From positions 1 to 64,000 of the forward strand of contig JAILHF010000017.1 of NCBI GenBank assembly GCA_024696005.1: a stretch of 64,000 nt of DNA, in the 5' to 3' direction. Shown here piece by piece: positions 6,961-49,800 of this stretch (position 1 is the first letter of the stretch; every line of letters begins with the position of its first letter). The translations under genes were made by a program, and so were the position numbers. This DNA comes from Lachnospiraceae bacterium (GTDB taxonomy: Bacteria > Bacillota > Clostridia > Lachnospirales > Lachnospiraceae). The notes below the pieces were generated by a model. That model was not told the origin of the DNA, made no database searches, and saw only the letters and a list, made by a program, of their open reading frames with translations.

Positions 6961-6977
6961 CTTTTGTCCTCCTGTTG

Positions 6978-14711: not shown

Positions 14712-16301
14712 ATGGCGAAAGAGAAGATGGAAGAAAAAGAGATAAAACCCGAAGAGATGCAGCTCGATGATGCGGCGCGCGTAAAGGTGCTTTCCCCCGG
14801 AATGATGGTTGCGAAGCGCTTTTTCCGCAACCGTCTTGCGATCGTCGGCATGGTGATCATCATCTGCATGTTTTTGTTCTCCTTTTTGGGAGGGGCTCTG
14901 AGCCCTTACTCCGAAAGCGAGGTGTTCTATACCAGCGAGACCATGCTCAAGGACTACGCCGGTGCCACGGCCATTGACCAGTATCTGTTCGTGGTAAAGC
15001 CCGGAGAGGCCCTTCCGAAGGACATCTATTCCAAGACCATGATCGCCGCGAGCACAAACAAGTTTGAGTTCACTTCCCGTGACGGCAACAACTACCGCCT
15101 GGAGCCTTTGGGAGAAGAGGTCTATGTCCTTTACGCGAGGGTGCAGACCGGCCCCAAGCCGAAGGATGTGGAAGATGTTGAGATCGCGATCGGTTCCCTG
15201 AAGAGCTTTACGACGGCATCGGCCGACATGGAGCTTTCCTATGATTTCTGCAAAGGTGCGCTGAGTGCGCTTGCGTCCGGACAGGAGAGCTTTTCCGCGG
15301 ACGGAGCGGATTACAAGATGGAAGCGGCCGGCAACCACGGCGCGCTGATCATGGATGCGTCCGGAGCAGAGACGGCTTTTGTATCCGACATGAACATCAA
15401 CCCGGTCAATTCCGGTACCTACTTAAGCCCCGGCTTCAAGCTGCTTCTGATCGAGATGATCGAGCAGGAAAAGGACAGCATGAGCGTTACCGAGGATGAC
15501 GGTACCGAGGCGACCTATCTGCTTCAGAACAAGAACGGACAGTATCTGGTGCGCCGCAACCAGGAGACCAGGATCATCGACAGCTATGCAGCGCCTTCGC
15601 CGGAGCATGTCTTCGGAACGGACGGCAACGGCATGGATCTGATGGCCCGTCTGATGTACGGCGGACGCATCTCCCTGCTGATCGGTTTTGTCGTCATTGC
15701 GATCGAGGTGGTGATCGGCACGATCATCGGCGGCATCGCGGGCTTCTTCGGCGGGCGCATCGACAACCTGCTGATGCGTCTGGTGGACGTGATCTACTGC
15801 ATCCCGTCCCTGCCGCTTTTCCTGATCCTCGGTTCCATTATGGATTATTACCAGCTGCCCGCAAAGGTCCGTATCTACACCCTCTGCGTGGTCCTGGCCG
15901 TGATCGGCTGGGTCGGCATCGCGCGTATCGTGCGAGGCCAGATCCTTTCCCTGCGCGAGCAGGAATTCATGATCGCGACCGAAGCGCTGGGCCTGAGCAC
16001 GCACCGCAGGATCTTCAGGCATCTGGTGCCGAACGTCATCCCGCAGCTGATCGTGTTCGCCAGCATGGGTCTGGGCGATGTCATTCTGACCGAGGCCACC
16101 CTGAGCTTCCTGGGCATGGGCATCAAGTACCCGGCAGCCAGCTGGGGCAGCATCATCAATGCTGTCAACGATGTGAACGTCATGACGAATTACGTCTTTG
16201 TATGGCTCCCTGCAGGCATGTTCATCCTGCTGACGGTGCTGGCATTCAACTTTATCGGCGATGGTCTGCGCGACGCTTTCGACCCGAAGATGAAGAGGTA
16301 G
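14712..16301 (+). CDS. Peptide ABC transporter permease, DppC/OppC type, with large extracytoplasmic insert
   Basis: A 529-residue permease; the family is normally about 280-320. The N-terminal cytoplasmic part and first helix (about residues 43-60) are normal. Then about 235 residues are inserted before the conserved SPEHVFGTDGNGMDLMARL-type motif near residue 300 that normally follows helix 1 closely. The C-terminal half has five helices and the EAA loop LREQEFMIATEALGLSTHRR. The insert (for example TNKFEFTSRDGNNYRLEPLG and ADYKMEAAGNHGAL) is hydrophilic and beta-rich in look, with two related-looking halves, and faces the outside. A TTG at 14706 is a less likely start. It begins two bases after the DppB-type stop. 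Confidence 0.9.
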   Translation: MAKEKMEEKEIKPEEMQLDDAARVKVLSPGMMVAKRFFRNRLAIVGMVIIICMFLFSFLGGALSPYSESEVFYTSETMLKDYAGATAIDQYLFVVKPGEALPKDIYSKTMIAASTNKFEFTSRDGNNYRLEPLGEEVYVLYARVQTGPKPKDVEDVEIAIGSLKSFTTASADMELSYDFCKGALSALASGQESFSADGADYKMEAAGNHGALIMDASGAETAFVSDMNINPVNSGTYLSPGFKLLLIEMIEQEKDSMSVTEDDGTEATYLLQNKNGQYLVRRNQETRIIDSYAAPSPEHVFGTDGNGMDLMARLMYGGRISLLIGFVVIAIEVVIGTIIGGIAGFFGGRIDNLLMRLVDVIYCIPSLPLFLILGSIMDYYQLPAKVRIYTLCVVLAVIGWVGIARIVRGQILSLREQEFMIATEALGLSTHRRIFRHLVPNVIPQLIVFASMGLGDVILTEATLSFLGMGIKYPAASWGSIINAVNDVNVMTNYVFVWLPAGMFILLTVLAFNFIGDGLRDAFDPKMKR

Positions 16302-16308
16302 GAAACAT

Positions 16309-17442
16309 ATGGCTAAGAGTTCAAATTATATTTCGGCAAAGGAATCCCGCAGGATCAGCCGCGAAAACCGGCGGATCACGGGCGAGATCGAAAAGAAGCG
16401 CAAGCGCAAACACATTCCCGAGAGCGAGTATGTCACGCAGATGAAGGATCCGGAAAACTGCGTGGAGTTCGATGATGTAAAGACCTATTTCTTTACGGAC
16501 ATCGGTACCGTCAAATCGGTGGACGGCGTGAGCTTTTCGGTCCCGAAGGGCAAGACCGTGGGGATCGTGGGTGAGAGCGGCTGCGGCAAGTCCGTGACCT
16601 CGCTTTCGCTGATGCAGCTGGTGCAGCGTCCCCAGGGACAGACGGTGGGCGGCGAGATCCGTTTCAACACCGGCGAGAAGGTCATCAATGTAGTGAATGC
16701 GCCCGAGAGCGTGATGCGCGAGCTGCGCGGCAACAACATGGCCATGATCTTCCAGGAGCCCATGACCAGCTTGAACCCGGTCTTTCGGATCGGCGCACAG
16801 CTGGATGAGGAGATCGCCCTGCATTTTCCGAAGCTTTCGAAAGAGGAAGTGAAACAGCGCTCGATCGAGATGCTCGGCATGGTCGGCATCGCGAACAAGG
16901 AAGGCGTATACCGCATGTTCCCCCACGAGCTGTCGGGCGGCATGCGGCAGCGTGTGATGATCGCCATGGCCCTTTCCTGCGATCCCAAGCTGATCATCGC
17001 CGACGAACCGACCACGGCGCTGGATGTTACGATACAGGCACAGATCCTGGACCTGCTGCGCGAGCTGAAGGGCCGCATCGGATCCTCGATCATGCTGATC
17101 ACGCACGACCTGGGCGTGGTGGCCGAGATGGCGGACTTTGTGGTGGTCATGTATGCCGGACGCGTGGTGGAACGCGGGACCGCAAGGGACATCTTCAAGG
17201 ATCCTCGCCATCCCTACACCGTGGGCCTGATGAAGAGCAAGCCCGTTGTCGGCAAGCATGTGAAGCACCTGTACTCGATCCCGGGCAGCGTGCCTAACCC
17301 CGTGGACATGCCGGATTACTGTTATTTCCGCGACCGCTGCGAACGCTGCGGGGAGAAATGCCGCGGTGCCTATCCGGAGATGGTGAAGCTCAGCGATACG
17401 CATTATGTGTCCTGCTATCTGCCGGACGAAAAGACGGAATAA
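16309..17442 (+). CDS. Peptide ABC transporter ATP-binding protein, DppD/OppD type
   Basis: A 377-residue ATPase that drives the transporter. Walker A GESGCGKS is at residues 88-95, the Q-loop is MIFQEPMTSLNP, the signature is LSGGMRQRVMIAMAL, and Walker B LIIADEPTTALD follows. The C-terminal oligopeptide-transporter domain carries clustered cysteines (CYFRDRCERCGEKC), which in some homologues bind an Fe-S cluster. The N-terminal 45 residues are a basic, helical extension (ESRRISRENRRITGEIEKKR) not usual in the family. It lies 7 bases after the second permease. Confidence 0.93.
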   Translation: MAKSSNYISAKESRRISRENRRITGEIEKKRKRKHIPESEYVTQMKDPENCVEFDDVKTYFFTDIGTVKSVDGVSFSVPKGKTVGIVGESGCGKSVTSLSLMQLVQRPQGQTVGGEIRFNTGEKVINVVNAPESVMRELRGNNMAMIFQEPMTSLNPVFRIGAQLDEEIALHFPKLSKEEVKQRSIEMLGMVGIANKEGVYRMFPHELSGGMRQRVMIAMALSCDPKLIIADEPTTALDVTIQAQILDLLRELKGRIGSSIMLITHDLGVVAEMADFVVVMYAGRVVERGTARDIFKDPRHPYTVGLMKSKPVVGKHVKHLYSIPGSVPNPVDMPDYCYFRDRCERCGEKCRGAYPEMVKLSDTHYVSCYLPDEKTE

Positions 17443-17493
17443 GGAAGCATTGGGAGTAACTGTTCCTTCGGGAACGGATGATATGGAGACATC

Positions 17494-18462
17494 ATGGAAA
17501 ACGTGATCGAAGTAAAACATCTGAAAAAATATTTTCCGATCAAGGGAGGCTTCTTCGGCGGGGTGACCGGCGAAGTGAAAGCCGTTGACGATATCAGCTT
17601 CACGATCCCCGCGGGCACCACGATGGGCCTGGTGGGCGAGAGCGGCTGCGGCAAGTCCACGACCGGACGCACGATACTGCGCCTGATCGAAAAGACCGAC
17701 GGAGAGATCCTCTTCAAGGGAGAGGATGTATCGGCGATGGACAAGAAGAAACTGCGGGAACTGCGCACGAAGATGCAGATCATCTTCCAGGATCCCTATT
17801 CCTCGCTGTCTCCGCGTCTGCCCGTCGGCGAGATCATCGGCGAAGCCGTGCGCGAGCACAAGCTGGTAGCGCCGGATGAGTATCAGGACTATATCACGAG
17901 CGTCATGAACGACTGCGGCCTGCAGCATTACCACAAGGACCGTTATCCGCACGAGTTCTCCGGCGGACAGCGCCAGAGGATCTGCATCGCGAGGGCACTG
18001 GCCGTGAATCCCGATTTCGTGGTCTGCGACGAGCCCGTGAGTGCGCTGGACGTTTCGATCCAGGCGCAGATCATCAACCTGCTCTGGAAGCTGCAGGAGG
18101 ACAGAAACCTGACCTACCTGTTCATCTCGCATGACCTTTCGGTGGTGGAGCACATCTCCGATTCGCTTGGCGTCATGTACCTGGGCAGCATGGTGGAGAC
18201 CGGCAAGACGAACGACATTTTTGCCGAGCCCCTGCATCCGTATACGCAGGCGCTTTTCTCGGCGATCCCGATGCCGGATCCCGACGCGAAAAAGGAGCGC
18301 ATCATACTGGAAGGCGACATCCCGTCCCCGGCCAACCCGCCTTCGGGCTGCAAGTTCCATACACGCTGCAAGCACTGCATGGAATGCTGCAAGAACGTGG
18401 CGCCCGAGATGAAGGATGTGGGCGGCGGACACTGCGTGTGCTGCCATCTTTACGATAAATAA
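17494..18462 (+). CDS. Peptide ABC transporter ATP-binding protein, DppF/OppF type
   Basis: A 322-residue ATPase partnering the DppD-like protein. Walker A GESGCGKS is at residues 48-55, the Q-loop IIFQDPYSSLSPR, the signature EFSGGQRQRICIARAL, Walker B FVVCDEPVSALD and the H-loop FISHDLSVVEH. The C-terminus again has a Cys-rich stretch, CKFHTRCKHCMECC, then CVCCHLYDK. A small UUCG hairpin (GTTCC-TTCG-GGAAC, about 17462-17475) lies in the 51-base gap before it. It ends the operon, before the hairpin cluster at 18463. Confidence 0.93.
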   Translation: MENVIEVKHLKKYFPIKGGFFGGVTGEVKAVDDISFTIPAGTTMGLVGESGCGKSTTGRTILRLIEKTDGEILFKGEDVSAMDKKKLRELRTKMQIIFQDPYSSLSPRLPVGEIIGEAVREHKLVAPDEYQDYITSVMNDCGLQHYHKDRYPHEFSGGQRQRICIARALAVNPDFVVCDEPVSALDVSIQAQIINLLWKLQEDRNLTYLFISHDLSVVEHISDSLGVMYLGSMVETGKTNDIFAEPLHPYTQALFSAIPMPDPDAKKERIILEGDIPSPANPPSGCKFHTRCKHCMECCKNVAPEMKDVGGGHCVCCHLYDK

Positions 18463-20853: not shown

Positions 20854-21306
20854 ATGAAGATTTCGCGCAGAAAAGCACTTCTTTTGGGACTGGCAGCCAC
20901 AACGCTGTTTCAGGCGGGCGGCTGTGAGAGCAACAGGGCAGAAGCTGTTTACGGCCCTCCCGAGTGGTTCAACAGCGGGAACAACATGGATGACGACGTC
21001 TACGGGCCTCCCGAGTGGACCGAGCCCGAGCCTGAGGACAACGCGCCGGATACGGTCTACGGGCCGCCCGAGTGGTTCGAGCCCGAGAACAATGTGGAGG
21101 AAGATGTCTACGGCCCGCCCGAATGGTTTGACGGGACAGATGAGGATGAGCCGGATGATCCGGACGCGGTTTCCGAAAACGAGGCTGTCTCCGAAAACGA
21201 AGCGGAGCAGAAGGATGCCGTGAATGAGACGGAAGGCCTTGAGCTCGAACAGAACATGCAGCCGGTCGTTTACGGCCCGCCCGAAGACTTCGGGAACAAT
21301 GATTAA
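20854..21306 (+). CDS. Secreted lipoprotein-like protein with five VYGPPE repeats
   Basis: A 150-residue protein. The N-terminus MKISRRKALLLGLAATTLFQ has a twin-arginine and a hydrophobic stretch, followed by AGGC with Cys24, a weak lipobox. The mature part is highly acidic and holds five copies of VYGPPE: VYGPPEWF at 32-39, VYGPPEWT at 49-56, VYGPPEWF at 68-75 and 85-92, and VYGPPEDF at 139-146. Spacing is 17-19 residues for the first four, with Asp/Glu/Asn-rich linkers, and a SENEA direct repeat lies near residues 107-116. I do not know the function. The regular aromatic-proline motif could bind a cell-wall or metal ligand, or be a substrate for modification. No radical SAM or peptidase gene is adjacent. 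Confidence 0.75.
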   Translation: MKISRRKALLLGLAATTLFQAGGCESNRAEAVYGPPEWFNSGNNMDDDVYGPPEWTEPEPEDNAPDTVYGPPEWFEPENNVEEDVYGPPEWFDGTDEDEPDDPDAVSENEAVSENEAEQKDAVNETEGLELEQNMQPVVYGPPEDFGNND

Positions 21307-25801: not shown

Positions 25802-25833
25802 ACCGGCTTCGGTCATGAACAGTGCATTCCCGG

Positions 25834-25862
25834 GCGGGGCTTTTCGGAAAGCCCCGCTTTTT
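25834..25862 (+). terminator. Rho-independent terminator of the POR operon
   Basis: GCGGGGCTTT pairs with AAAGCCCCGC across a TCGG tetraloop and is followed by a TTTTT run. It is a strong, textbook terminator directly after the last gene of the operon. Confidence 0.88.
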
Positions 25863-25894: not shown

Positions 25895-25923
25895 TGTACA
25901 AGACACTGTAAAAGTGCTATGAT
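25895..25923 (+). promoter_or_regulatory. Candidate promoter of the vWA-lipase gene
   Basis: TGTACA (25895-25900), a 17-base spacer and TATGAT (25918-25923), 45 bases before the ATG at 25969. The -35 is weak. The ribosome binding site GAAAGGAGAAAG lies in between. Confidence 0.5.
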
Positions 25924-25968: not shown

Positions 25969-28900
25969 ATGAAAGCCGGAAAACGCTTTACAGCAATGCT
26001 TCTGACCTTTATCCTCCTGTTCACCAACGTCCTGCCCGCGATGGCCGGCGATGATGAGCTTCCCGAGACCGTCGTGACCGACGAAGCCGGGGACGAGGAG
26101 AGCGGAGAAGCATCGGACAACGACATCGTCCCGCCCGAAGAGGAGGGTGAGGACGCTAATCCGAACGAAGTGACCGAATTTGAAGACATCAGCGAGGAGG
26201 TCCTCGCAAAGCTCATGGCGGAAGCGAAAGCCATTGATGCAGCGACCGCACCCGACGGGAACGGCATGTCCCGCAAGGCGGATGTGGTGTTTGTCATCGA
26301 TACCACCGGCTCCATGGGCGATGAGATCGCTGCCGTCAAGGAAAACCTTTCCGCATTTGTGAACTATCTGGCGGATAAGGGACTGACCCTTCGTTTCGGC
26401 ATCGTTTCCTACCGCGACACCAAATCCGACGGGATCAACTCCACGATCATCCACCGGGACAGCCTGTCGGGTTCGCCCTGGTATACCAGCGCAGCCAGAA
26501 CCATCGAGGAACTGAGCAGTCTTACCGTCGGAGGTGGCGGGGACACGCCCGAAATGCCCATCGATGCATTGGGTTATCTTTGTGATGACAATACCTATAA
26601 CTGGAGCAGCAATGCCACCAGATGCGCGATCCTTCTGACGGATGCGGATTATCATGTGACGAACCGCTGGGGTTATCCGAGAGCCATCGCAAGCCCCACG
26701 GATTCCGACAGATACACGGCCATGACGGAACTGGCCGAGGAGCTGTTCAAGCGCAATATCGTTACCTCCGTCATCACCTCTCCCATGTACTATCCCGATT
26801 ATGAGATGCTTGTCCGCATCACGGGCGGGATCCTGGGGGATATCACCGGCGATTTCTTCATCGTATTGCAGGAAATGGCCGACACGATCCTGAATGCCGC
26901 GGCCAAGACCTCGGTAGGTGTTTACATCCTTCCGGGATACATGGGCTCGCAGCTCTATTCCAATGAGGACAACAGCCTTGTCTGGGCAGATCCCGTCAAG
27001 CTGGTCAGCGATGCCACCGCGTATCTTACCGGCAGCGATCCCGGTGCCCTGGCGCGTGATCTTGGCGGTGAAGGAGCCAGGGTGCATCCCGATGCGGAGC
27101 AGGACATCTACGGTACCCTGGACCAGTACAGGCCCCTTGTGGAATTCCTGAGTGCAAACCTGGACGAGAATACGCATACCATCCGTTTCTTCCCTTATGA
27201 CTGGCTCGGCGATCTGGACGACGCGCAGGCGCTGCTCGCCGCCGACATCAAAGCCTCCGGTTACGACAAGGTCATCCTTGTGGGCCACAGCACCGGCGGG
27301 CTGGTTGCTTCCGCCTTCATCGCGGATTCGGAACTGAACCGCGCGAAAGTGGACAAGGCCGTTCTGGTGGCTGCGCCGCTGTACGGTACCTATACCGCAG
27401 CGGAAGCGCTTACGATCGGAAAATCCACAACCTTTGACAGTATGCTGAGCGCCATCGCCTCCTCCACGGCGGCGACTGTTAACATCAGCGCGCTCCACAG
27501 CTGGGTACGCGCCGTTGTGGCGAACTCTCCCGCAAGCTACCAGCTTCTTCCCAGCGAAGAATACCTGAGAATGCTGCCCCAGATGAACAAGGGCGAAAAG
27601 AACGCCCCCATCACCTCCGCAGCCGAATATTACGCATACCTGAGCAGCGCAGCCGGTCTCAATGCCGCACTCCTGAGCGGAAGCGCAAACAGCCACAGCT
27701 ATTTCCGCAATACCGGCCTTTACGGCGATGTGGCGGGCGTGCTCAACATGGTGGATACGACCCTGATCGGTAACTCCGAAGGCAAGGCAACACCCGCCAT
27801 CGGCGTGCTGCAGACCGGACTTTTTGCCGGAGCAGCCTTCACCGAGACCGTTTACAAGGCCGAAGGTGACAGCACCGTCATGGGTGTCAGCGCCCTGCTG
27901 AAGCCTGCTTACGGCGGTGAGGCGGACAGCATCAAGCGTGTCGACCTCAGAAATTCCGCAAATGCAAAGAACCTGGATCACGGCGGACTGGTAACACAGC
28001 CCGAAGGCCTGAGTGCCATCCTTGCAGCCATCAAGGACGACGGTTCTTCCATGGCGTCTTATTCCACCGAGATCGAGTGGGCCGAGGACGAAGTGTACGC
28101 GGTGGACGCGGCTGCCGATGAAGGCATGGCCGACACCGTGAAATTCCTGGTCAACTGCAGGCAGGAACTCAACTTTACCGTGACGGACAAGAGCGGCACC
28201 GTCGTTGCGATGGCCGGTCCCACCGGTGTTGCGGGCTTCGGTCAGCTTGACCGTTTCACCTACGATGTGATCCCGGCTTCGGACGGATCGGTGGTATACC
28301 AGATCCAGGTGCCGAAGACCGGCTATGTTGTGACCATCACGGCTTCCGCTCCCGGCTCTTCCGTCAGCGCAAACCTTGCGGCTGCTACCCTGGACCGCGG
28401 CGGTTTCCGCAAGGTCACCGCGCTCTACGAGATCAAGAGTGCCATGGCCCGCATCGACATGACTGCCGGCGTGGACGACGAGAGCATCAAGACCCTGGCA
28501 GACCAGAGCGGAAGCGGCCTGACCTACCGGAATGAAAAGAAAGGCGTCTCCGACTGGACGATCAAGGAAGACAAGGTCATCTTAAACGAGATCGGCGAGA
28601 GCCATACCCTCACGCTCACAGGCGACGATGCGGATAAGATCGATCCCGCATCCCTGAACTGGACCAGCACCGACAGCAGCGTGGTATCCGTTGCGGGCGG
28701 CGTTGTGACCGCCGAAGGATACGGCGATGCCTACATCTATGCAAATACCACGGACGGAAGCGGCAAGTCCGGATCCTGCCACGTGATCGTGGGCGTTTAT
28801 CCCACAGCTGTCTACATCGAAGACTTCTCGATGATCGTCGGCAAGAGCATCCGGCCCAAGGCTGTGTTTACGCCTTCCAATACCAACATCACCGGCATGA

Positions 28901-31488
28901 GCTTCAGCTCCTCCAACCAGAGTGTTGTAAAGGTCATCAACCGCAATACCCTGAAGGCCGTCGGCGAAGGCATCGCCGAGATCACCGGCCGCACCGAAAA
29001 CAACATCGCAACGACCTTCTTTGTGACCGTTCGCAATACCGATTCGCTCTATGTGGATGAAGTCTCGATCGATCCCGGCGTAGCCGTGCTTGGTAAGGAC
29101 CAGAGTTCCACCGTTGTTGCAAGGATCGTTCCGGAAACGGCCTTTAACAAGAAAGTGACCTGGAACATCGCCGACGAGAGCGTCGCGACCTTTACCCTGA
29201 ATGCGGACAATTCCTGCACCATCGTGGGACATGCGGAAGGCGTGACCCAGCTTTCGGCCATCAGTGATGACGGCTCCTATAACGATGACGCCACCATCGT
29301 GGTCGGCAATATCCTCAATGTGGACGCTACCCGCCAGATGATCATGAAGCCCGGCGAGCAGAAGCAGCTTGTTCTCGAGAAGGACGGCGTGTACTATCCC
29401 GTCAGCAGCACAAGCTCCACCGCGGCGACTGTGGCAAAGGCCAGTGCAACCGGCATGGTCACGGCAAGCGGAAGAGGCAATGCTCTGATCACCCTTGAAG
29501 GGGCTCGTAACGGCAAAAAGGTCTCCACCGTTCTGCAGGTGCGTGTTGTTGATTCTGCAAGCGATGTGATCTCGAGCGTGCGTGTGACAAGTGACAAGGT
29601 AAAGTCCAACGTCTATTACAACGAGAGCGGTGAAGTGATGATCAGCATCGCGTTTGCGGGCGACGGGACCTCTTCCTATGATGTGAGCCTCGACAACATC
29701 GCCATGATGGTCGACAGCGCGGAATTTGCCGATGCCGCGACCGCTTCCGTATTTGCGCTGGCACCTACCGGTGACAGCAGCCTGAAGATCATTCCCCGCT
29801 GCGAGCTTACGGACAGCGCGATCAAGGCCCTGCAGAAGAGTTATTCCTCTGCGGTCAAAGTCACGATCGACGGGACTGTCTATACGACGAAGGAAAGCGT
29901 GACCGTCAATGTCGATACCACTGTTCCTTCCGTGAAAGCAGCAAACGTTACCCTGAACGCCTTCTTTAAGAACGATTCCGCTCCTCTGGAATTCACGTCG
30001 GAATGCGGCGAGATCACTTCCGTGAGCGTTTCGGAAAAGGCATCGATGCCTTCCGGTATCGTTCTGGACGGCATGTCCCTTCGCCTGGACGGCAGCACCA
30101 CCTCCTTCCCGAAGGCAGGGGTCACGGCTACCCTCAGCGCCAAGTCCGACCGGCTTCGCAAGGGCGTGGATGTCAAAGTCAATGTCAAGGTACTCAACAG
30201 CCAGCCCGCATTCCGCTTCTCCTCCTCTACCGTCAAGGTTTTCGGGGATGTCTCGAAGAACCGCGGACAGCTGGTCTATCTGCAGACAAAGAGCAAGAGC
30301 GAGAGCCTGAGCGATTATCCTCTGGCAGGGATCGGTCTGGTGGCTCCGGACGAGATGACGGATGCTGAGAAGAAGAAGCACACGATCAACGACAAGTACA
30401 CGGTTTACGGCTTCGATCCCGAAGAAGGCAGCTTTATGCTCAAGCCTCTCGGAAGCCGTGCTGCCGGCGGATCCCTGCTGCTGCAGGTCAATATGTATGA
30501 CTCTTCGGAGGTCATCCGTCTGCCGCTGAAGGTCAGCGTTGTCAGCAAGGCGAAGATCAAGACCAGCAAGTCGAGCATCAAGTTCAGTTCCAAGTTCACG
30601 AGCAGCGAGGTGGCGACTGTTGAGTTCAGTGTCAACCCCGCCGACTATGATATCTCCGGTTTCAAGGTGAAGGCCGTAACGACCAAGGGCAACCAGGAGA
30701 CCAGCGATATCTCCGTCACCCTGACCGGAAACAGGATCACCATCAGACCCAACACGACGAGCAAGAAGGGCAAGTACAGGGTGCGTCTGTACGACGGCAG
30801 CCTGGAGAAGATCATCTCCGTTACCCTCAATTCGAAGAAGGCAAAGGGCAAGCTGAAGGCATCGGGTGAGATCGATCTGGCAAAGCCGGCAACGTCCCAT
30901 GTGACGCTGGATACGAAGCTCAAGGGCTTTACGTATGACAAGAATTATCTGTCCTGCAAGATCTCTTCCGCTTACAGGAAGGTGCCCGCGAAGTACGGCT
31001 ATAGGACGGTTTCGGTCTATGATTCCCTGACGCTTACCAACCTGGGTAACGGCAAAGCGCGACTGACCCTGAATCCTTCGGGTTATGCGTTCCAAAACGG
31101 GAATGTGCAGCCCGGCAAGTACACGATCAAAGTCGGCTTCTACATTTCCGGCCGCCTGGTGACCACCGCTTCCGCAAGCTTCAAGATCAAGTGCGGCAAG
31201 TTCAGCATGAGCGCGAACACGGACGAAGTGGTCCTTACCGCAGCCAACACGAGCGTTCCCGTTCCGGTAACGGTCGAGGTCAGCGGGCCGGATGCCTCCA
31301 TGCTCAGCTGGAAATGCAGCGGCGGTGCAATGGATTTTGCCGAGGTGGAACAGCTTTCACCCGGTAAGTTCGCGATCAAGCTCGACAGTGCTTTTGCCGG
31401 ATCCGGCAAGAGCGGAAACCTCGTGATCGAGGGCTCCCTGCCCGGCGGCAGCAGCGCCAAAGTATCCGTAAACGTGGTCGCAAAGTAA
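25969..31488 (+). CDS. Secreted vWA / LCAT-like lipase / bacterial Ig-like multidomain protein
   Basis: A 1839-residue secreted protein. Residues 1-27 form a signal peptide ending PAMAG, followed by an acidic linker to about residue 95. A von Willebrand A domain spans about 100-305: MIDAS DTTGSM from Asp111, with GGGGDTPE and LLTDAD. An alpha/beta-hydrolase of the lecithin:cholesterol acyltransferase/lipase type follows (about 315-690). It has oxyanion region LPGYMGSQL, nucleophile GHSTGG (Ser441), Asp634 in GDSTV and His671 in LDHGGLV, so the catalytic triad is complete. The rest is beta-sandwich, with Big_2-type repeats (WTSTDSSVVSVAGGVVTAEG, near 890) and further Ig-like regions. No LPXTG sorting signal ends it. 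The vWA-LCAT fusion is unusual. Substrate lipid and binding partner are unknown. Confidence 0.82.
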   Translation: MKAGKRFTAMLLTFILLFTNVLPAMAGDDELPETVVTDEAGDEESGEASDNDIVPPEEEGEDANPNEVTEFEDISEEVLAKLMAEAKAIDAATAPDGNGMSRKADVVFVIDTTGSMGDEIAAVKENLSAFVNYLADKGLTLRFGIVSYRDTKSDGINSTIIHRDSLSGSPWYTSAARTIEELSSLTVGGGGDTPEMPIDALGYLCDDNTYNWSSNATRCAILLTDADYHVTNRWGYPRAIASPTDSDRYTAMTELAEELFKRNIVTSVITSPMYYPDYEMLVRITGGILGDITGDFFIVLQEMADTILNAAAKTSVGVYILPGYMGSQLYSNEDNSLVWADPVKLVSDATAYLTGSDPGALARDLGGEGARVHPDAEQDIYGTLDQYRPLVEFLSANLDENTHTIRFFPYDWLGDLDDAQALLAADIKASGYDKVILVGHSTGGLVASAFIADSELNRAKVDKAVLVAAPLYGTYTAAEALTIGKSTTFDSMLSAIASSTAATVNISALHSWVRAVVANSPASYQLLPSEEYLRMLPQMNKGEKNAPITSAAEYYAYLSSAAGLNAALLSGSANSHSYFRNTGLYGDVAGVLNMVDTTLIGNSEGKATPAIGVLQTGLFAGAAFTETVYKAEGDSTVMGVSALLKPAYGGEADSIKRVDLRNSANAKNLDHGGLVTQPEGLSAILAAIKDDGSSMASYSTEIEWAEDEVYAVDAAADEGMADTVKFLVNCRQELNFTVTDKSGTVVAMAGPTGVAGFGQLDRFTYDVIPASDGSVVYQIQVPKTGYVVTITASAPGSSVSANLAAATLDRGGFRKVTALYEIKSAMARIDMTAGVDDESIKTLADQSGSGLTYRNEKKGVSDWTIKEDKVILNEIGESHTLTLTGDDADKIDPASLNWTSTDSSVVSVAGGVVTAEGYGDAYIYANTTDGSGKSGSCHVIVGVYPTAVYIEDFSMIVGKSIRPKAVFTPSNTNITGMSFSSSNQSVVKVINRNTLKAVGEGIAEITGRTENNIATTFFVTVRNTDSLYVDEVSIDPGVAVLGKDQSSTVVARIVPETAFNKKVTWNIADESVATFTLNADNSCTIVGHAEGVTQLSAISDDGSYNDDATIVVGNILNVDATRQMIMKPGEQKQLVLEKDGVYYPVSSTSSTAATVAKASATGMVTASGRGNALITLEGARNGKKVSTVLQVRVVDSASDVISSVRVTSDKVKSNVYYNESGEVMISIAFAGDGTSSYDVSLDNIAMMVDSAEFADAATASVFALAPTGDSSLKIIPRCELTDSAIKALQKSYSSAVKVTIDGTVYTTKESVTVNVDTTVPSVKAANVTLNAFFKNDSAPLEFTSECGEITSVSVSEKASMPSGIVLDGMSLRLDGSTTSFPKAGVTATLSAKSDRLRKGVDVKVNVKVLNSQPAFRFSSSTVKVFGDVSKNRGQLVYLQTKSKSESLSDYPLAGIGLVAPDEMTDAEKKKHTINDKYTVYGFDPEEGSFMLKPLGSRAAGGSLLLQVNMYDSSEVIRLPLKVSVVSKAKIKTSKSSIKFSSKFTSSEVATVEFSVNPADYDISGFKVKAVTTKGNQETSDISVTLTGNRITIRPNTTSKKGKYRVRLYDGSLEKIISVTLNSKKAKGKLKASGEIDLAKPATSHVTLDTKLKGFTYDKNYLSCKISSAYRKVPAKYGYRTVSVYDSLTLTNLGNGKARLTLNPSGYAFQNGNVQPGKYTIKVGFYISGRLVTTASASFKIKCGKFSMSANTDEVVLTAANTSVPVPVTVEVSGPDASMLSWKCSGGAMDFAEVEQLSPGKFAIKLDSAFAGSGKSGNLVIEGSLPGGSSAKVSVNVVAK

Positions 31489-31691: not shown

Positions 31692-34600
31692 ATGAAGCGA
31701 AAAAATAAGATGGAAAAAGTGATCAGTCTGATCCTGTGTCTGGCCCTGCTGCTTCCGTATGTTCCGGTACGTGCGGAAGGGGAGACGGAAGGAGAGGCCG
31801 GGGAGTGGGAGAATGCATCTTCGGAGGAAGCTTACGGTCTGAAAGATCCGCGGCTGATCCGTGAAGGCTGGGATGAGATCTATGAATTCGACACCATATG
31901 GTTTGGCTCTTATGTGCAGGACGATATCACGGGCGAGCAGAAGAATTCCATTCGCTGGCGGGTGTTGGATGTGAGCGGTAACGAGGCACTCTTGGTCTCG
32001 GATTCCATCCTGGATGTGCAGCCCTTTCACGATGTGGAAGACAGGGCGGATACCATGGATGCCTGGTGGCATGATTCTACCCTGCGCTCCTGGATGAACG
32101 GATACGACGCTACGGAGAACCGGGCTGGAAAAGACTACAGCGGGGAAGGGGACAGCTTTATCACAAAGGCCTTTACGACTGCGGAACGGGAAGCTCTGAT
32201 CCCTGATACACAAAAGGGTGAGGAAGGGTATTCCAGCCTTTTGAAGGAGAGGATAAGTGAACCTGATACGCTTGATAAGGTCGGCCTGATCGGACCGGCG
32301 GAGATCAATGAGAAATCCTATTGTCTGTTCAATAGGTATGGAGGTACTGCCAGTCTGAACATGCGTCAAAAGGCCAGCAACTATGTCCTGGTACAGTCCG
32401 GTGCTCTGCCGCGTTACTGGCTTCGCATGATGTATGACCGGAACTATTATGAGGAAAGCACGATCGAATATACCGAACAACTTGGGAGAGCCTTTTACTG
32501 GACGTCGGATGAAGAGATCAAACAGAAAGCCAACAACGTCATTTATTACAAAAATGAAGCACACGGGGTTGTGGCCAGGATCAGGCTGGATCTGAGCAAA
32601 ACGGATCTCTGGTCCTTTGCGGGTACTACAACGAATGAGGGCCTGGATGATTTTTCGGATGCGGCCCCCATGCCGGTTCGCGTGGATTACAGCAGGCAGG
32701 TGCTTCCGGCTTCGGAGGGCCTGAAGCTTTCCGAAGATGGGAAGACAGCTCTTTCCTATGAGGGTGAGGATCACATCGTCGTGATACCTGAGGGGGTAGA
32801 GGAGCTGGATCCGGATTTTTACTTAAACTCCGTGGAGATCTGGTATCTGCATCTTCCTTCCACGCTGAAGACCATACCGGATCATTGCTTCGATGGCGAG
32901 ATACAGGGAAAGGGGGATAAGTATAAGAGAAAGGATTTCACTTATGTGCGTTTTAATGATCCGTCGGCCTCGCAGCTGAAGACCATCGGAGAATATGCTT
33001 TTCATGATCAATATTTGTTTGAGGTTCTGCTTCCGGAAGGGCTTGAAGAGATCAAGGCTCACGCCTTTGATGATGGCTTCTCTGATGCTAATGACAGCTC
33101 CGTAGCCTCCGTGGGAAATCATACCAATATGAACTTTCCCGACGGTCTGAAGGTGATCGGAGAGAATGCCTTTCGAAGTGCGGATATTCAGTATGTTCGC
33201 TTTGGGAGCGGGCTGGAGAGCCTGGGGAAGGGAGCTTTTCTTTATTCGGATATCGCATCCGTCGATCTGTCCCGCTGTAAAAAGCTTAAAACGATACCGG
33301 AAGACAGCTTCCGTTGCGATGAGCTCAATGCCGGGCTCCTCAATGTAGTGCTGAACGAGGGATTGGAAGAGATCGGTGCCGGAGCTTTTGCTGTGGCCGG
33401 AAATGACTCCAAGCCGATCCGGATCGTGGTGCCCGACAGTGTAAAGAGTATCGGAGACGAAGCCTTTGCGGGCGGCAGCATCGAGAAGCTGATCCTGCCC
33501 GAAACCGTGGACTATTTCGGAGAGCATGTGATCAGTCTGGCAGGGGATCTGCATTATCTGCGGCTTCCGAAGAATCTGACGAAGATCGACGGTATTCTTC
33601 GAAAACTTAAGTATGAGGACAGCATCCCCAGAATCCTGGTCTGTGAGGGAGATGTAAGCGAGGTGATCTGGGGAGGAGCTGCCGAAAACACGTATATCCC
33701 GCAATATATCATTTACGGAAAGTCCGGTACGGCACTGGAGGAAACGGCAAGGGAAAACAACCTGACCTTTTATGACTGCACAAAGAACCCTCCTCCCGAT
33801 GACTATGAGATAAGCATCACGGAGCGGGATCTGAATGTGGTGGCGGACGGAGATGCTCTGTGCTCCTATGAGGAAAATACCCTGAAGCTTTTGGGAAAGG
33901 GGACATACAGGATCTCCATGAAAGAAGGAGTAAGCTCCACTACAGACTGCATCGTGGTCGGCAACGACTGTACGATCGAGCTTGATAATGTAGACATCCG
34001 GACGGACTCGAAGAAGGACTACGGCAATCCCGACTGGCCCTATGGCGGTTTCGCAGGCATATGGATCCCGACCAATTCCGGCGCGAAGGTGACGATCCGC
34101 TTCAAGGGGACGAATACCGTCAAGGGCTCGGGCTCGCTGATCGGCATCATGAAGTATTCGAGAAGCTCTGCCGGGCAGCTTACGCTGGTGGCAGACAGCG
34201 GTACGGATGCCGATGTGCTGAGCTGCAACGGCATCGGCTACGATGATCTGAGCGGAAACCGTCCGCAGGATGAATACGGCAACCGCTATTATCATTCGCA
34301 CAATATCACGATCGAGAGCGGTACGGTAAAGAGCAGCTTCGGAAACTGCGGGTGCAGCAATTTCCAGATCAACGGCGGCGTGCTGGAAACGGATTCCCTC
34401 GGGAACCTGAAGGTAAATGGCGGAACGGTAAGGGTAAAAAATGGCGTGGATCATTTCAGCACCGTCAGGATCAACGACGGTGATGTGTCCCTCACTACGA
34501 TCGAGAGCGAATCCAAGATCCAGATGTATGGCGGACGGCTGAATATCAAAGACTACAAACGCATGGACGGGGAGCTGGAGTATCATGGCGGCTATGTTTT

Positions 34601-35855
34601 CTCCGGAGACGAGCAGATCTACCCGAGCCCCACTCCGACGGAAGGGGAAAAGAAACCGGTCGCCTCGATCAGCCTGAATAAGTCGGAACTGAAGCTGAAA
34701 GCGGGAGAGAGTGGGAAACTGACGGCAACGATCCTTCCGGAGGATGCAGAAGACAAGAGCGTGGAATGGAGCAGCGATAATACGCCGGTTGCTACCGTAG
34801 ATGCAAGCGGTAATGTTACGGCGGTGGCCGAAGGTAGCGCAAAGATCATGGTAACGGCAAAAGACGGCAGCGGTGTGAGTGCATCCTGTACGGTCACGGT
34901 CGAAAAAGCCGGCGAGGATGAGCCTGCTCCGTCTCCGTCTCCGGCAGAACCCATCCCCGGCAGCGGCGAGGCCAGGGATCCCCAGCCGGTGATCGAGGAG
35001 GGCGAAACACTTTATCTCGTGAAGGGACAAAGCTTTACACTGGCAAAGGGCTGGAGCAGCAGGGACAGGATCCTCAGCGTGAGCAAAACGGGTGTGGCCA
35101 AGGCAAAGAATACCGGAATGGCCACGCTGGTCTACGGAGATAACGAAAAGACGATCCATGTGAGCATCACCGCTCCCACGATCACTTCCAGGATTTCTTC
35201 GCTGCCCGTGGGTACGAGTCAGGAAATTGCGCTGAACTGCGACAGCCACCTTCCGGTGCTCTGGTATAGCGCCGCGCCGAACATCGCGACAGTGGATCAG
35301 GGGGGACATGTGACGGGGCTTTCGAAGGGAACGGCCAAGGTCACGGCGATGATCAACGGAAAAGCCTATATCTGCTCGGTGAAGGTTACGGAAGAGAAAT
35401 CCCTTCCGGAACGGGATCTGTACCTGAACGTGAAGAAAGCCAAGAATGTAAAGATCAAGGGGCTTAAGAAAACGGTCTGGACCATCTCCGGAAACGAAGC
35501 GGAAGGCAAGGAGATCGTGAAAGTAAGCGGCAGCAAGCTCAAGGGGCTGAAGGCCGGTGATGTGAAGCTGGTCTGCGAGGGCTATGTGCTGAATGTCCAT
35601 GTGGAGGACCCGGTCCTGGAGGGGAGCGCGAAGCCCTGCAAGATGACGATCAACATGAAGGCCGGGGAGGTCTCGGAGAAGCCGGTGAAACTACTGGGCG
35701 TGAAACAGACTGTGATCTTTAAGAGCAACAAGCCTTTGGTGGCCTATATCGACGACAGCGGCCTGATCCATGCCCGCAGCAAGGGCAAAGCGAAGATCAC
35801 GGCGAAGATCAACGGCAAGAGCCTGACGATCATTGTAACGGTGAAGCAAGGATGA
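31692..35855 (+). CDS. Secreted DUF6273/leucine-rich/Big_2 surface protein
   Basis: A 1387-residue secreted protein. The signal peptide (residues 1-28, SLILCLALLLPYVPVRAEG) is followed by a DUF6273-like region (about 45-330: IWFGSYVQ, then IRWRVLDV and LRSWMNGYDA). BspA-type leucine-rich repeats cover about 345-690 (LKTIGEYAFHD, GLEEIKAHAFDDG, GLKVIGENAFRS, SVKSIGDEAFAGG). A beta-helix-like region with ISMKEGVS and IELDNVDI, then TLVADSGTDAD, covers about 700-975. Big_2 Ig-like domains (SISLNKSELKLKAGES) follow, then a Pro/Ser linker SPSPAEPIPGSGE and more Ig-like domains to the end. No sorting signal. Such proteins bind host or plant polymers or cells; the ligand is not known. Confidence 0.82.
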   Translation: MKRKNKMEKVISLILCLALLLPYVPVRAEGETEGEAGEWENASSEEAYGLKDPRLIREGWDEIYEFDTIWFGSYVQDDITGEQKNSIRWRVLDVSGNEALLVSDSILDVQPFHDVEDRADTMDAWWHDSTLRSWMNGYDATENRAGKDYSGEGDSFITKAFTTAEREALIPDTQKGEEGYSSLLKERISEPDTLDKVGLIGPAEINEKSYCLFNRYGGTASLNMRQKASNYVLVQSGALPRYWLRMMYDRNYYEESTIEYTEQLGRAFYWTSDEEIKQKANNVIYYKNEAHGVVARIRLDLSKTDLWSFAGTTTNEGLDDFSDAAPMPVRVDYSRQVLPASEGLKLSEDGKTALSYEGEDHIVVIPEGVEELDPDFYLNSVEIWYLHLPSTLKTIPDHCFDGEIQGKGDKYKRKDFTYVRFNDPSASQLKTIGEYAFHDQYLFEVLLPEGLEEIKAHAFDDGFSDANDSSVASVGNHTNMNFPDGLKVIGENAFRSADIQYVRFGSGLESLGKGAFLYSDIASVDLSRCKKLKTIPEDSFRCDELNAGLLNVVLNEGLEEIGAGAFAVAGNDSKPIRIVVPDSVKSIGDEAFAGGSIEKLILPETVDYFGEHVISLAGDLHYLRLPKNLTKIDGILRKLKYEDSIPRILVCEGDVSEVIWGGAAENTYIPQYIIYGKSGTALEETARENNLTFYDCTKNPPPDDYEISITERDLNVVADGDALCSYEENTLKLLGKGTYRISMKEGVSSTTDCIVVGNDCTIELDNVDIRTDSKKDYGNPDWPYGGFAGIWIPTNSGAKVTIRFKGTNTVKGSGSLIGIMKYSRSSAGQLTLVADSGTDADVLSCNGIGYDDLSGNRPQDEYGNRYYHSHNITIESGTVKSSFGNCGCSNFQINGGVLETDSLGNLKVNGGTVRVKNGVDHFSTVRINDGDVSLTTIESESKIQMYGGRLNIKDYKRMDGELEYHGGYVFSGDEQIYPSPTPTEGEKKPVASISLNKSELKLKAGESGKLTATILPEDAEDKSVEWSSDNTPVATVDASGNVTAVAEGSAKIMVTAKDGSGVSASCTVTVEKAGEDEPAPSPSPAEPIPGSGEARDPQPVIEEGETLYLVKGQSFTLAKGWSSRDRILSVSKTGVAKAKNTGMATLVYGDNEKTIHVSITAPTITSRISSLPVGTSQEIALNCDSHLPVLWYSAAPNIATVDQGGHVTGLSKGTAKVTAMINGKAYICSVKVTEEKSLPERDLYLNVKKAKNVKIKGLKKTVWTISGNEAEGKEIVKVSGSKLKGLKAGDVKLVCEGYVLNVHVEDPVLEGSAKPCKMTINMKAGEVSEKPVKLLGVKQTVIFKSNKPLVAYIDDSGLIHARSKGKAKITAKINGKSLTIIVTVKQG

Positions 35856-43842: not shown

Positions 43843-43875
43843 ATTTTGCAGCTACCAAACATAAAGGAGGCGGAG

Positions 43876-46800
43876 ATGAAAAAAAGGATGAGGCGTTTCT
43901 TGAGCAGCATGATGGCTTTCCTCATGGTCCTGGTGAGCCTTCCGGTGCCCGGACTCAAGGTGCATGCGACGGAAAACTACGGTGTCTGGATCGGAGATAC
44001 CGAGTTTACCTCGGATGATCTTGTCATAGAGGGCGAGAGCGGAACGGCTGCCTTTGACAGTGTGACCGGGACGGTCACCTTCAATGATTTTGAGGGAGTC
44101 AAAGGAAAAAAGGATGACTGTCTGATCTATACGAACCGGGACATCACCTTGAGCGGCAAGGCTGTGATCAGCGGTGATGATACGGCGCAATACGGCATTT
44201 ATGCGTATGCCTGCGACATCACGTTCTCCGAGGATGCGGACATAAGCGTGGACATGAACGAATACGGCGTCTATGGCATGGGGACAGACGCGGGCATATA
44301 CGTACGGGGAAAGCTGGATGTCACGGCCGGAAAAGGAGCCACGAACAGATCCGGCATGGAGGCGGACAAGATCTATGTGCAGGACGGCAGCGTGAGCGTA
44401 AACATGGCCGGCAGCTGGGCTTCCGGTATCAAAGTGGGAAAAGAGATGCTCATGAACAGCGGTTCGCTGACCGTAAAGGCCAACATGGATGATTCCTGCG
44501 GCATAGGGATCCACCAGGGCGCAGAGCTGACCATCTGCGGCGGTGAGACGCTCGTCTGCGCCGACGGCAAGAACGGCATCGCCATCGGCGGCAAAAGCTC
44601 CGAACAGGGCGACATCTACATGACCGGCGGAAAGACAAACCTTTCCGCAAGCGGAGAGGGAGGATACGGCATCCGTCTGTTTACGACGGGCCGTTTCACC
44701 ATGACCGGCGGTGAGATCATGGTCAGCTCCTACGAGAACGCCATCCACAGCGATCAGGAGCTGGTCGTCTCCGACAAGGCCATTTTCAAGGCACCCTACG
44801 AAGGCGGCGTGAGCGGTGATAAAAAGAACATTGTAGACAAATTTGGCAATGTGGTGACGCAGGCGCACATCGTGATCCCTCAGGGTTATGAGGTGTGGCT
44901 GGGCGGCACCGAGATCAACAGCGAGAACTGCACGGACATCCCCGGGCTCACCGGCGGCGGACATGCCAGCTTTGATCCTGCCACCTATACCCTTCGCTTT
45001 GACGGCGATGTGACGGGTGTTGAGAGTTTATACGATTCTATTTACGGAAAGACCATACTGTATTCCAGTTTCCCGCTTACCATTGAAGGAGATGCGGCGC
45101 TTGCGGATGAGCATGCCGTTTACGGCATCTGCGCGGGCGGAACGGATGCGAGTCTGGTCATCAACGGAAACATCAGCGCCCAGGCAGCGAAATGCGCGGT
45201 CTATTCGGAAGGTGAGCTGACGATTAACGGTACCCTGAACGCATCGAACACCGATGACAGCGCAGATTATACGGTGAGAGCCCAGAAGCTGTTTGTGAAG
45301 GGCGGCAACCTGACGATCAACGGAAAAATAGCGCACGATAATGTCCTGGAAGTATCCATGGAGATCTCGATGATGAGCGGCAGCATCAGCGTGAACAACA
45401 CGGTGCCGGCTTCGTCGATCCCGGATGGCAAGAACATCAACTGCTTCGGGACGGTCAACATCTTTGGCGGCACGCTGTGGTCCGACAGCAGCTACGGTTA
45501 CGCGCTTCATGTCGGAGATACCCTCCTGCTGGATGGCGGACAGGTGGATCTGATCGGAAGCAGGCCGGACGGGATTACCCTTTTCATCGCGCACACAGCC
45601 GAGATCACCGGCGGCAGACTGAACGTCACGTCGGAAAAGGGAGGCGGCATCTCCTGCGCGGACATGTACATTGCCCAGGCCGTTGTGAATGTAGTCTCGA
45701 AAAAGGCCGGCATCAGCTGCACGGGCACTTTCTCCATGGATTCCGGCATTCTGGAATCCAGATCGGAAGAAGCCGAGGCGCTCGTGGCAGCAACGGCGAT
45801 CACCCTGAAGCCCGGTCAGGCCGAGATCACCATTCCCGCGAACGGCAAGGCTGTCGGAGATACCATTCTGGAGTCGGATAACACGACCCGCGCGAAGTGG
45901 GTACGGATCGAAGGGGAAGTCAGCTATCCCGTTTGGGTCGGAAGCAAGCAGGTAAACATGGACAACAAAGATGCCATTCCCGTGGAGGGCGGCGGAAGCG
46001 CCTCCTATGATGACGTCACCAAGACGCTCACGTTCAGCGGGAATGTAAGCGGTGTCAGCGGACTTTACGATCTGGCAGGCACCAAGGTCGCGATCTACAC
46101 TCTGGATCCGATCGGTCTGGTCATCAGCGGCAACGCGGCGCTGAAGAACGCGGATGCGGACATGGGCATTTTTGCAGACGGCGGTACGCTGACGATAAAG
46201 GACGATGTCGAGATTTCTTCAAAGAATGAGGCACTCGTGAATGCGAGCGGCGGTATCCTGATCGAAGGAGAGGTCACGGCAGCGAACAACAGCGTGAATC
46301 AAACGGTCAAATGCGCAGGTGACCTGACGCTGAACGGCAAAGGCCTGCATGCGAAAAACAGCGGGACGGGTCAGGCCATCTTTACGAACGGCCGGCTGAT
46401 CCTCAAGGCAGGCGTGCTGGAAGCGGAAAGCAAGGATAAAGCGATCCAGGCGGAAGGAACGATCGATCATTCCGCAGGCTATGAGCCGGTCATTCCCGAC
46501 AATGGGCGGTATTCGGACGATGAAAAGAGCGTGGATGAATATGTCCCCGGAGAGGGTTATGTGCCTGCGAAGAAGGTACGTCTCGAGAAGCTTGATAAAT
46601 ACGATCTGTATGTGGGCGGCCAGCTTGTCACCAGTCTGAACAAGGATAACGTTCCCGGCCTCAAGAGCGGAAGCGCTTCCTACAACGCGGCAACGCATAC
46701 CCTGACATTCAAGGGTGCGGTGATCGAGGATCAGCTCGATGAATACAAGGCAGCGATCTATTCGGGCGAGTCTCTGATCATCGAAGGTGATGTGTCGATC

Positions 46801-49800
46801 GATACTTCCGAGAAAGAAGGCAGTTATGCGCTCCGCACGGAAGGCGAACTGACCGTGAACGGAACGGTCACGGCGAAGGCTGATTTTTACGGCGTTTACG
46901 CGGGTGACGCGGATCTCAATGTGAACGGCAAGCTGGTGGCAAAGGGCGACAAGGCGGCTGTCACCGCGAAAAAGCTCGTGGTCGACGGCGGAAGCCTGAG
47001 CGCGAACGTATCGAATGCCTACACGAAGTCCGATGCCATTCTGACGAGCGGCGATGTGGAACTGAAGAGCGGAAGCATCACGGCTCTCAGCAGTGCGGAA
47101 AAAGAAGCCGGCGGCATCAATGCCGGCGGAAAGGTCACCATTACCGGCGGCAGCATGCTGATCCAAAAGACGGAAAAGGGCGGAACCGCTCTTTATAGCT
47201 TTGACGGCATCTACGTGGAAGGCGGAAGCCTTGATATCATCTGTGCCGGTGTAAAGCATTATACCTCCTTCGGGATAAAGGATTCCTTCCTCTGCGTCAA
47301 TGGCGGCAGTGTCAACATCACGGTGAAAGGAATGGCCTGCACGGCTATTTCGAGCAACGGGATCAACCTCGATGTGCACGGAGGAAGCCTTACCGTTTCC
47401 AGCGAGCTCACGCAGGCGATCAAGTGCTCAAAGTTTGTCATGGATGCGGGAAGCGTGAATGTCAGTGCCGGCCTGAAGGGCATTGTCTGTGCATTGTACA
47501 TGCAGAGCGGCGGCGAGGTGAGTGTGGACGCCGGTAAAACGGCCGTGGAATGCACAGACTTCGATATCTCGGCCGGTTCCTTTGCGGCCGATGCGAAGGA
47601 TGGGACGGCTGCCATCGTGGCTACGGGCATGGCGACCAAAGCAGCCGAAGTCGAGATCGTAAAACCTGCAGGCGGGGAGATCAAAAAAGTAGGAACGGCT
47701 CCCGATCCCGAGTATTACACGGTCGTGGGCAGCGGTGATGCAGTGGCCTCCTCGGTCCTGCTGTATGCCCCGGCAAAGTATAATGTATGGGTCGGCAGCA
47801 CGCAGGTGACGGATCTTAACAAGAGCGGGATCGAAGTTGAGGGCGGAAGCGTCAGCTATGATCCGGCCGGCAAGACCCTGCGCTTCAACGGCAGCGTGAG
47901 CGGCGTGAAGGAAATGGATGCGTCGTTCCACCAGATCTTTGCATCGGATCAGGATCTTACGGTATGCGGAACGGCTTCTCTTCTTAATGAAGATGCGCTT
48001 TCCGGAATAGAGGTATACAACGGAAATCTTACCATTCTCGGAAACATTGATGCGTTCGGCAAGGAAGGCGCCATCATGAGCACGGGAACCGTAACCGTGA
48101 GCGGCAATGTGAGCGCACGCGGCGGAAACGCGACCGTGGGTGCCCTGGATGCATCCGATTCGCTCATTCTGGAGAGCGGTACCCTGACGGTAAGTGCCGC
48201 GAACGCGACGACCTGCGCAGCGATCGTAACCAACAATCTGAAAGTGAACGGCGGAAAGCTCGTCGTGGAAGCAGAGGGCACCAGGGCCGTCAGCGACGCG
48301 CTGATCACCGTGAAGGGCGGAAGCGTAAAGATCAGCGGCAAAGACGCGCTCGATACGTCAACTCTTACCGTTGAGGGCGGCAACATCGATGTGCGCGCCA
48401 CGGATAAAGCGATCAATCTGAGCGGTGCCTTTTCCATGAAGGGCGGCACCCTGCGTGCGGCAACGGAAAGCGGCAGCGCGCTTGTGGCAAACGGCGGCAT
48501 CACGATCGAGGATACACACGAGATCACGGATCCCGTCGAAGGCAAGATCAGCGCGGACGGCAAGTCGATCGTCACCAAGGATGATGCAACGACGAAGGTC
48601 GTAAAGATCGAGAAGAAGGGTGTCAAATATACCGTAAGCTTTAACATGTGCGAACACGGTACGGCGATCGAGCCGCAGACCGTTCCCGAGGGAGAGACGG
48701 TTGCGGAACCCACCGAACCTTCGGCAGCGGGCTTTACCTTCCGCGGCTGGTATACTTCGGCGGATTACGCACAGCTCTATGATTTCAATACACCGGTCAC
48801 CTCCGATCTGATGCTTTACGCAAAGTGGACGGAGAATGCGGCTTCCGAGCTGATCAGCATCTCCATTAACAAAGCACCGTCGAAGACCGTTTACAGAGTG
48901 GGCGAGAGCTTTGATCCGACGGGAATGACGGTGAGCGCGAACTATTCGGACAGCAAGGATAACAGACTGGTCACGGATTACGACTGGAGTCCTTCCGGTG
49001 CGCTTTCACTCAGCGATACGGTGATCATCATCAGCTATTCCGAGGGCGGCATCACGAAGACCGCTTCGCAGAACATAGTCGTGAAGGACAGCTCTGCTCC
49101 GATCCCCGATGATGAGCAGGATCTGTGGAACCTTTTTGAGGATGCGGAATACAGCTTCGAGATCAGCGCACTGAGCGCAGGCGGCGACACGGTCAACACG
49201 AACGTTAAATCCGCGAAGTTCTATGATGCGGTGCTGAACGGAAACACCATCAGTGTGAAGCTCAAGAACGGTGTGGACCGCAAGAAAGCAGCCAAGCCCG
49301 CAAATACCGTGCTTGAATTCCGGCTTCCGAACGGAAGTGCGGTCACTTATGTGATGCCGGTACAGTATGTGAAGCCCGTGTTCAAGCTGAGCATCAGCAA
49401 CGTCACGATCCGGAAGGGCGCAGACAGCGAAGTGACAACAAAGCTTCTGTACAAGACCGCAGGCGGCAACTTTGAGCCTTATGACCTGACCTATGCGACC
49501 GTGAAGGTCGGCGGACAGGAAGCGATCGGGGATGCCGACGGAGAGATCAGCATCACGACCAACATGGCGATGAGCGGTATCTCCGTGAAAGAGGAAGACT
49601 GGGAAAGCGCGGTCGACCTGAAGTTCAACGTAAAGGCAGTGGACAAGGATGTGCTGAGCGTAGATCTGAAGGGCGCGAAGAACGTGGTCCTCAATACCCA
49701 GGATCCGGATGCGACCTATTCCTTCAAGGTCACGCTCAACGGCAAGGATGTGACGGCTGCGGACGGCGTGAAGGTCAGTTGCAAGAAGGCAGAGGGCCTT

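Follow-up and report, generated by a model that had tools for sequence, protein, structure and literature searches.

The joining of a von Willebrand A (vWA) domain to an LCAT-like alpha/beta hydrolase in one protein is a real, rare and recurring pairing; each of its parts is known, and the combination is new. We describe it in an open reading frame within a 64,000-nucleotide stretch of a Lachnospiraceae contig (the window, meaning that whole stretch). We favor the reading that the protein is a secreted enzyme, which acts on lipid esters and is guided by a binding module, and put the probability of this reading at about 0.6.

Results

The gene at 25969-31488 (+) is a single open frame of 1839 amino acids that starts with ATG, and an AAAGGAG stretch sits 5' of it. 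The features of the locus are as follows:

25832-25859: terminator-like hairpin (region scan, 10 such sites versus a shuffle mean of 10.3; weak)
25895-25923 (+): promoter-like site, its second hexamer preceded by TG (region scan, 9 such sites versus a shuffle mean of 6.0; weak)
25969-26046 (+): signal-peptide-like N terminus, aa 1-26 (read from the translation)
26047-26280 (+): acidic linker, aa 27-104 (read from the translation)
26281-26904 (+): vWA domain, aa about 105-312 (Pfam VWA_4, PDB profile matches and MIDAS table; end estimated from the alignment)
26905-28083 (+): LCAT-like alpha/beta hydrolase, aa about 313-705 (Pfam LCAT, 20-row alignment and PDB profile matches)
28084-28503 (+): conserved post-hydrolase segment, aa about 706-845 (alignable in the compared relatives; best Pfam match E 0.14)
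28504-29586 (+): Big_2 Ig-like region, aa about 846-1206 (Pfam)
29587-31488 (+): C-terminal region including the stop codon (no family recognised by Pfam in pieces; no LPxTG motif and no SLH match)
Opposite strand: further open reading frames of 685 and 837 aa (open reading frame list)

The original prediction had named a vWA domain followed by a lipase, and Pfam profiles placed both above their curated cut-offs. VWA_4 (PF25106) matched aa 106-202 with 36.0 bits against a cut-off of 27 (E 6.7e-9), while LCAT (PF02450) matched aa 338-496 with 32.3 bits against 21 (E 8.1e-8). Abhydrolase_6 also passed (29.6 bits versus 26.3), and NCBIfam gave nothing near its cut-offs in the 1839-aa protein. Big_2 reached 46.8 bits against 22.8 (E 2.8e-12) over three stretches of the full protein; when searched by pieces, aa 945-1030 and 1026-1116 scored above the cut-off and aa 840-950 and 1112-1206 below it. 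Because the pieces spanning aa 1205-1839 gave no Pfam match close to a family's cut-off, we limit the Ig-like label to aa about 846-1206. The predicted Ig-like domains therefore stand for this region, firmly for aa 945-1116, but not for the rest of the C terminus. The Pfam scan of pieces assigned no family to the post-hydrolase segment (aa about 706-845), and neither an LPxT[GA] sortase motif nor an SLH anchor was found in the window protein by motif search and Pfam.

MIDAS-type residues bind metal. The window vWA has the whole pattern, with D-x-[ST]-x-S (D111/T113/S115), a loop-2 ligand in the GGGDTPE loop at 189-195 and the TD aspartate at T224-D225; Asp111 lies within DTTGSM exactly where it had been predicted. 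The candidates in the loop are D192 and T193, the latter being Leu in L051. We tabulated the MIDAS in six fused vWA copies (the window, G071, G043, G507, G599, and G692) and found it incomplete in two: the G043 copy carries DxTxA and TN, and the G507 copy lacks the GGGD loop, while the other four keep the features. A four-row vWA profile searched against PDB chains matched integrin beta, complement factor B and other vWA chains with E values from 9.4e-7 to 0.1, together with HisF chains, which are an evident chance match. In the vWA tree, 2 of 21 inner branches were starred, which is compatible with a single origin or with several origins of the fusion.

The hydrolase motifs likewise fell at the positions given in the original prediction: S441 in GHSTGG, D634 in GDSTV, H671 in LDHGG, and an oxyanion-type LPGYMGSQL from aa 321. 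The Pfam LCAT match spans positions 20-186 of the 392 in the profile and covers only the serine half. The Asp/His half missing from this single-sequence match was supplied, in sequence rather than structure, by conservation within the family and by profile matches. We aligned 20 hydrolases, leaving out L052, which is 98% like L051, and the columns of S441, D634, and H671 were invariant in all of them; we therefore rejected the idea that the triad had merely been picked by eye. The HSxGG serine and the GDxx[VIF] aspartate, with one or more histidines 20-70 residues beyond the latter, were present in 21/21 hydrolases checked. These 21 were the frames covering the domain, with relatives drawn from genomes and public contigs; the incomplete G599 and G692, the short-frame order hits L046-L049 and weaker class hits were left out.

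When the 20-row profile was searched against PDB chains, group XV phospholipase A2 matched with E 5.1e-19 over a stretch running from before the serine past the histidine, with all three triad residues in register. The LCAT chain matched with E 5.2e-16, its Asp and His lying in a second stretch whose match is weak when taken alone. An "uncharacterized" chain, 4r1d_A, matched with E 5.8e-20 over the serine half together with the oxyanion loop; we take 4r1d to be a phospholipase effector of type VI secretion. Over the Asp/His part, 3lp5, a putative cell surface hydrolase, matched with E 4.1e-8. A PDB search with the single sequence returned only weak lipase hits, the best being 7x2p at E 0.012. 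When the post-hydrolase segments of two hydrolase branches were compared by hhalign, the probability was 13.7 and E was 0.002.

We also modeled the hydrolase with its following segment, and the vWA with the hydrolase, by AlphaFold2 using alignments of 5 and 9 rows, the latter with some rows plainly misaligned or covering one domain only. Mean pLDDT values were 42 and 48, respectively, and hence of low confidence. With the low-confidence vWA-hydrolase model as a query, Foldseek listed vWA-bearing chains among its matches, with TM-scores near 0.2 when normalised to the query, and no hydrolase chains among the best 50 rows.

Complete vWA-hydrolase pairs were found in four further genomes, G043, G071, and G237 from other families of the same order and G507 from another order. 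The shared domain order that had been proposed as a check on the prediction thus exists, and we rejected a one-off fusion or assembly join on these grounds. The triad is invariant in all five complete fusions, the other four being 34-43% identical to the window core, and the linker between vWA and hydrolase is about ten residues in each of the five, as judged by eye from alignments. Two genomes hold a vWA with an incomplete hydrolase. The G599 frame stops shortly after the serine motif, at a contig end; In G692, a one-contig genome, the vWA protein retains Big_2 but has lost the hydrolase core, and a second protein has a very similar vWA and SLH domains with no hydrolase match.

Among 34 genomes of the same genus (completeness 67-100%), none matched over the hydrolase and six matched the vWA part only. 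The PF02450 model matched 4/60 relatives, including the window's own genome; it matched none of the 34 further genomes from the genus. For a wider view, we built a pair profile from the window, G071, G237, G043, and G507 and scored up to three candidates per genome. In the order sample, 106/392 genomes matched somewhere and four over both domains, all of them profile rows; in the class sample, 52/391 matched and two did so over both domains in full (the window's own genome and G507, both again profile rows), with G599 reaching position 340 of 576 and G692 position 288. The two samples overlap, so their counts are not additive, and neither yielded a further complete fusion beyond the profile rows. 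The presence in several families and absence from the genus sample suggest transfer or repeated loss.

Recent arrival as foreign DNA found no support, as the GC content of the frame and its domains and the GC at codon positions resemble those of the neighbors by eye. The same holds for a plasmid or phage gene: at E 1e-5, plasmids gave no hydrolase match and phages no match to the vWA-hydrolase pair. A scan of viral contigs using the hydrolase sequence found no match, and profile scans gave distant relatives. Three viral-collection contigs (L096, L097, and L100) encode LCAT-like hydrolases with the triad motifs and no preceding vWA.

The partners of related hydrolases and vWA domains vary. In the midpoint-rooted hydrolase tree, the window, G071, G043, and G507 form one clade with L054 and L055 (100/100), unresolved inside. 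The L054 and L055 hydrolases, which are close to the fused ones, come without a vWA; L054 has no Pfam match N-terminal of its hydrolase, and L055 aligns with it. Among more distant relatives, L059 (from G345) has a lectin-like domain before its LCAT-like hydrolase (Lectin_L-type 75.6 bits, just below the 78.3 cut-off, with two other legume-lectin models passing theirs), and L057 has DUF6273 in that place. C-terminal partners change as well: L051 carries Big_2, L082 carries SLH domains with no Big_2 match, and in both L082 and L057 the SLH domains lie near the C terminus. The vWA also occurs without a lipase match, in L085, where VWA_4 is found with Big_2, cadherin-like, and SLH domains. In G242, locus L056 has two adjacent LCAT-like hydrolases at 4363-6798 and 6922-8991 (+).

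A second vWA-lipase pairing was found in G639 and G534, whose proteins combine VWA_4 with a class-3 lipase (Lipase_3), SLH domains, and TSP3 repeats according to Pfam (L087, 2225-6700, minus strand; L088, 1147-5838, plus strand). A serine-motif pattern searched in 20 other vWA proteins gave a candidate in these two only. Lipase_3 itself matched 60/291 class genomes; domain architecture was examined in these two genomes.

Comparison of eight loci revealed no neighbor gene in common with the window, apart from two transporter-side window frames, 16294-17439 and 17482-18459, for which L082 and L054 had weakly matching frames. Related small proteins adjoin the fusion gene in L051, L052, L083, and L084, on its upstream side in some loci and on its downstream side in others, and the two scanned had no Pfam match above cut-off. 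In the window, the next gene (31692-35855, plus strand) encodes a 1387-aa protein with DUF6273, BspA-type leucine-rich repeats, and Big_2; its DUF6273 recurs as the N-terminal module of L057. On the same strand lie a lipoprotein-like protein of 150 aa (20854-21306), in which the motif YGPPEWF recurs and for which Pfam gave no match at E 0.01, a protein of 2224 aa that combines a Cthe_2159 carbohydrate-binding domain, a Listeria-Bacteroides repeat, and Big_3 (43846-50520), and a TwoAYGGAY RNA (2593-2758; 100.5 bits versus a gathering score of 43).

Discussion

The best reading of these data is a secreted enzyme, be it a phospholipase, a lipase, or an acyltransferase, whose placement depends on an exchangeable module. 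The N-terminal signal would export the protein. Once outside the cell, the LCAT-like domain would act on a phospholipid or another lipid ester through Ser441, Asp634, and His671, either cleaving off an acyl chain or transferring it. The vWA may bind a partner on a surface, either a protein or a polymer, normally through a metal at the MIDAS, and such binding would bring the enzyme to its substrate. Big_2 and the further C-terminal domains might serve as a stalk or as extra binding units. Surface placement by the vWA is plausible from sequence, and we favor targeting because different N-terminal modules precede related hydrolases and because a second vWA-lipase pairing exists. Several findings count against the overall reading, namely, the hydrolases that occur without a vWA, the loss of the hydrolase core in G692, the lack of an anchor motif, the near absence of shared neighbor genes, structure models too poor in quality to bring the triad into view, and the match of the LCAT model to only two of the five fusion cores (at E 0.01). 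A strictly metal-dependent role of the vWA has the two damaged MIDAS copies against it.

The short linker, together with the loss of MIDAS ligands in two of six copies while the triad stays, would also fit a vWA that packs on the hydrolase as a structural or regulatory partner and controls its lid or stability instead of targeting it. We consider this unlikely, as the close hydrolases L054 and L055 manage without a vWA, and a lectin-like domain or DUF6273 replaces it in more distant relatives. The protein could alternatively be a surface adhesin or scaffold, in which the hydrolase is incidental and free to decay. G692 points in this direction with both of its vWA proteins, as does the G599 frame, though the latter ends where its contig ends; the invariance of the triad in all five complete fusions, at 34-43% identity to the window core, speaks against such decay, and we consider this reading very improbable.

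The nature of the substrate has to be weighed as well. At E 0.01, general alpha/beta-hydrolase models matched all five fusion cores, PGAP1 and Ser_hydrolase four each, and the whole L051 and L082 proteins had no LCAT match. Palmitoyl-protein thioesterase weakly matched the window protein and L054, and the Asp/His part resembles 3lp5, as described above. These matches would suit a non-lipid ester, for example, an acylated protein or an acylated cell-wall sugar. However, LCAT and Abhydrolase_6 are the only hydrolase families above their cut-offs in the window protein, and, among the PDB chains listed, group XV phospholipase A2 alone has a best stretch that reaches from the serine to the histidine; a non-lipid substrate thus appears quite improbable, and we retain a lipid ester as the preferred target of the module-guided enzyme.

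The hydrolase shares with LCAT and group XV lysosomal phospholipase A2 (PF02450) the HSxG serine, the GD[GSD]TV aspartate, the histidine, and a PGYxG[SN]QL-type loop. It differs from them by sitting in an 1839-aa multidomain protein, and the other bacterial rows of the 20-row alignment are 17-38% identical to the window domain. The vWA resembles VWA_4 MIDAS domains in its profile score and its MIDAS-type residues, and weakly matches integrin beta and complement factor B, but is joined to a lipase-type domain. The G639 and G534 proteins similarly unite a related vWA with a lipase; however, their lipase belongs to another Pfam family and is separated from the vWA by over 200 residues, SLH domains are present, and their vWA domains branch apart from that of the window with modest support. 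In L059, a binding-type domain also stands ahead of an LCAT-like enzyme, although it is lectin-like, and the hydrolase falls in another branch of the tree.

In the open-licence PMC literature, with broader matches judged by title, we found nothing on vWA with LCAT, vWA with Lipase_3, or a von Willebrand and lipase domain in Clostridia, in agreement with the earlier description of the combination as little described. The terms vWFA domain and lipase occur in PMC9605555. In the passages considered, PMC3942780 mentions that a bacterial type VI secretion cluster contains a PF02450 gene, and PMC6686919 is among the literature on LCAT terms.

As a doubtful extension, we suggest that Clostridia may have repeatedly joined exchangeable modules (vWA, lectin-like, and others) to two lipase families, giving surface-directed extracellular lipases, and that some members of the LCAT branch might be secreted acyltransferases acting on host or dietary lipids. 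Binding modules fused to enzymes are well known in bacterial carbohydrate degradation and much less so for lipids. If this extension is true, modular lipases would be for lipids what enzymes with binding modules are for carbohydrates. Should LCAT-like enzymes be directed to particular surfaces by vWA or lectin-like units, this would offer a route to the lipids that these bacteria alter extracellularly. Natural comparisons, between proteins that have or lack a vWA and between intact and damaged MIDAS copies, make the function of the vWA directly testable.
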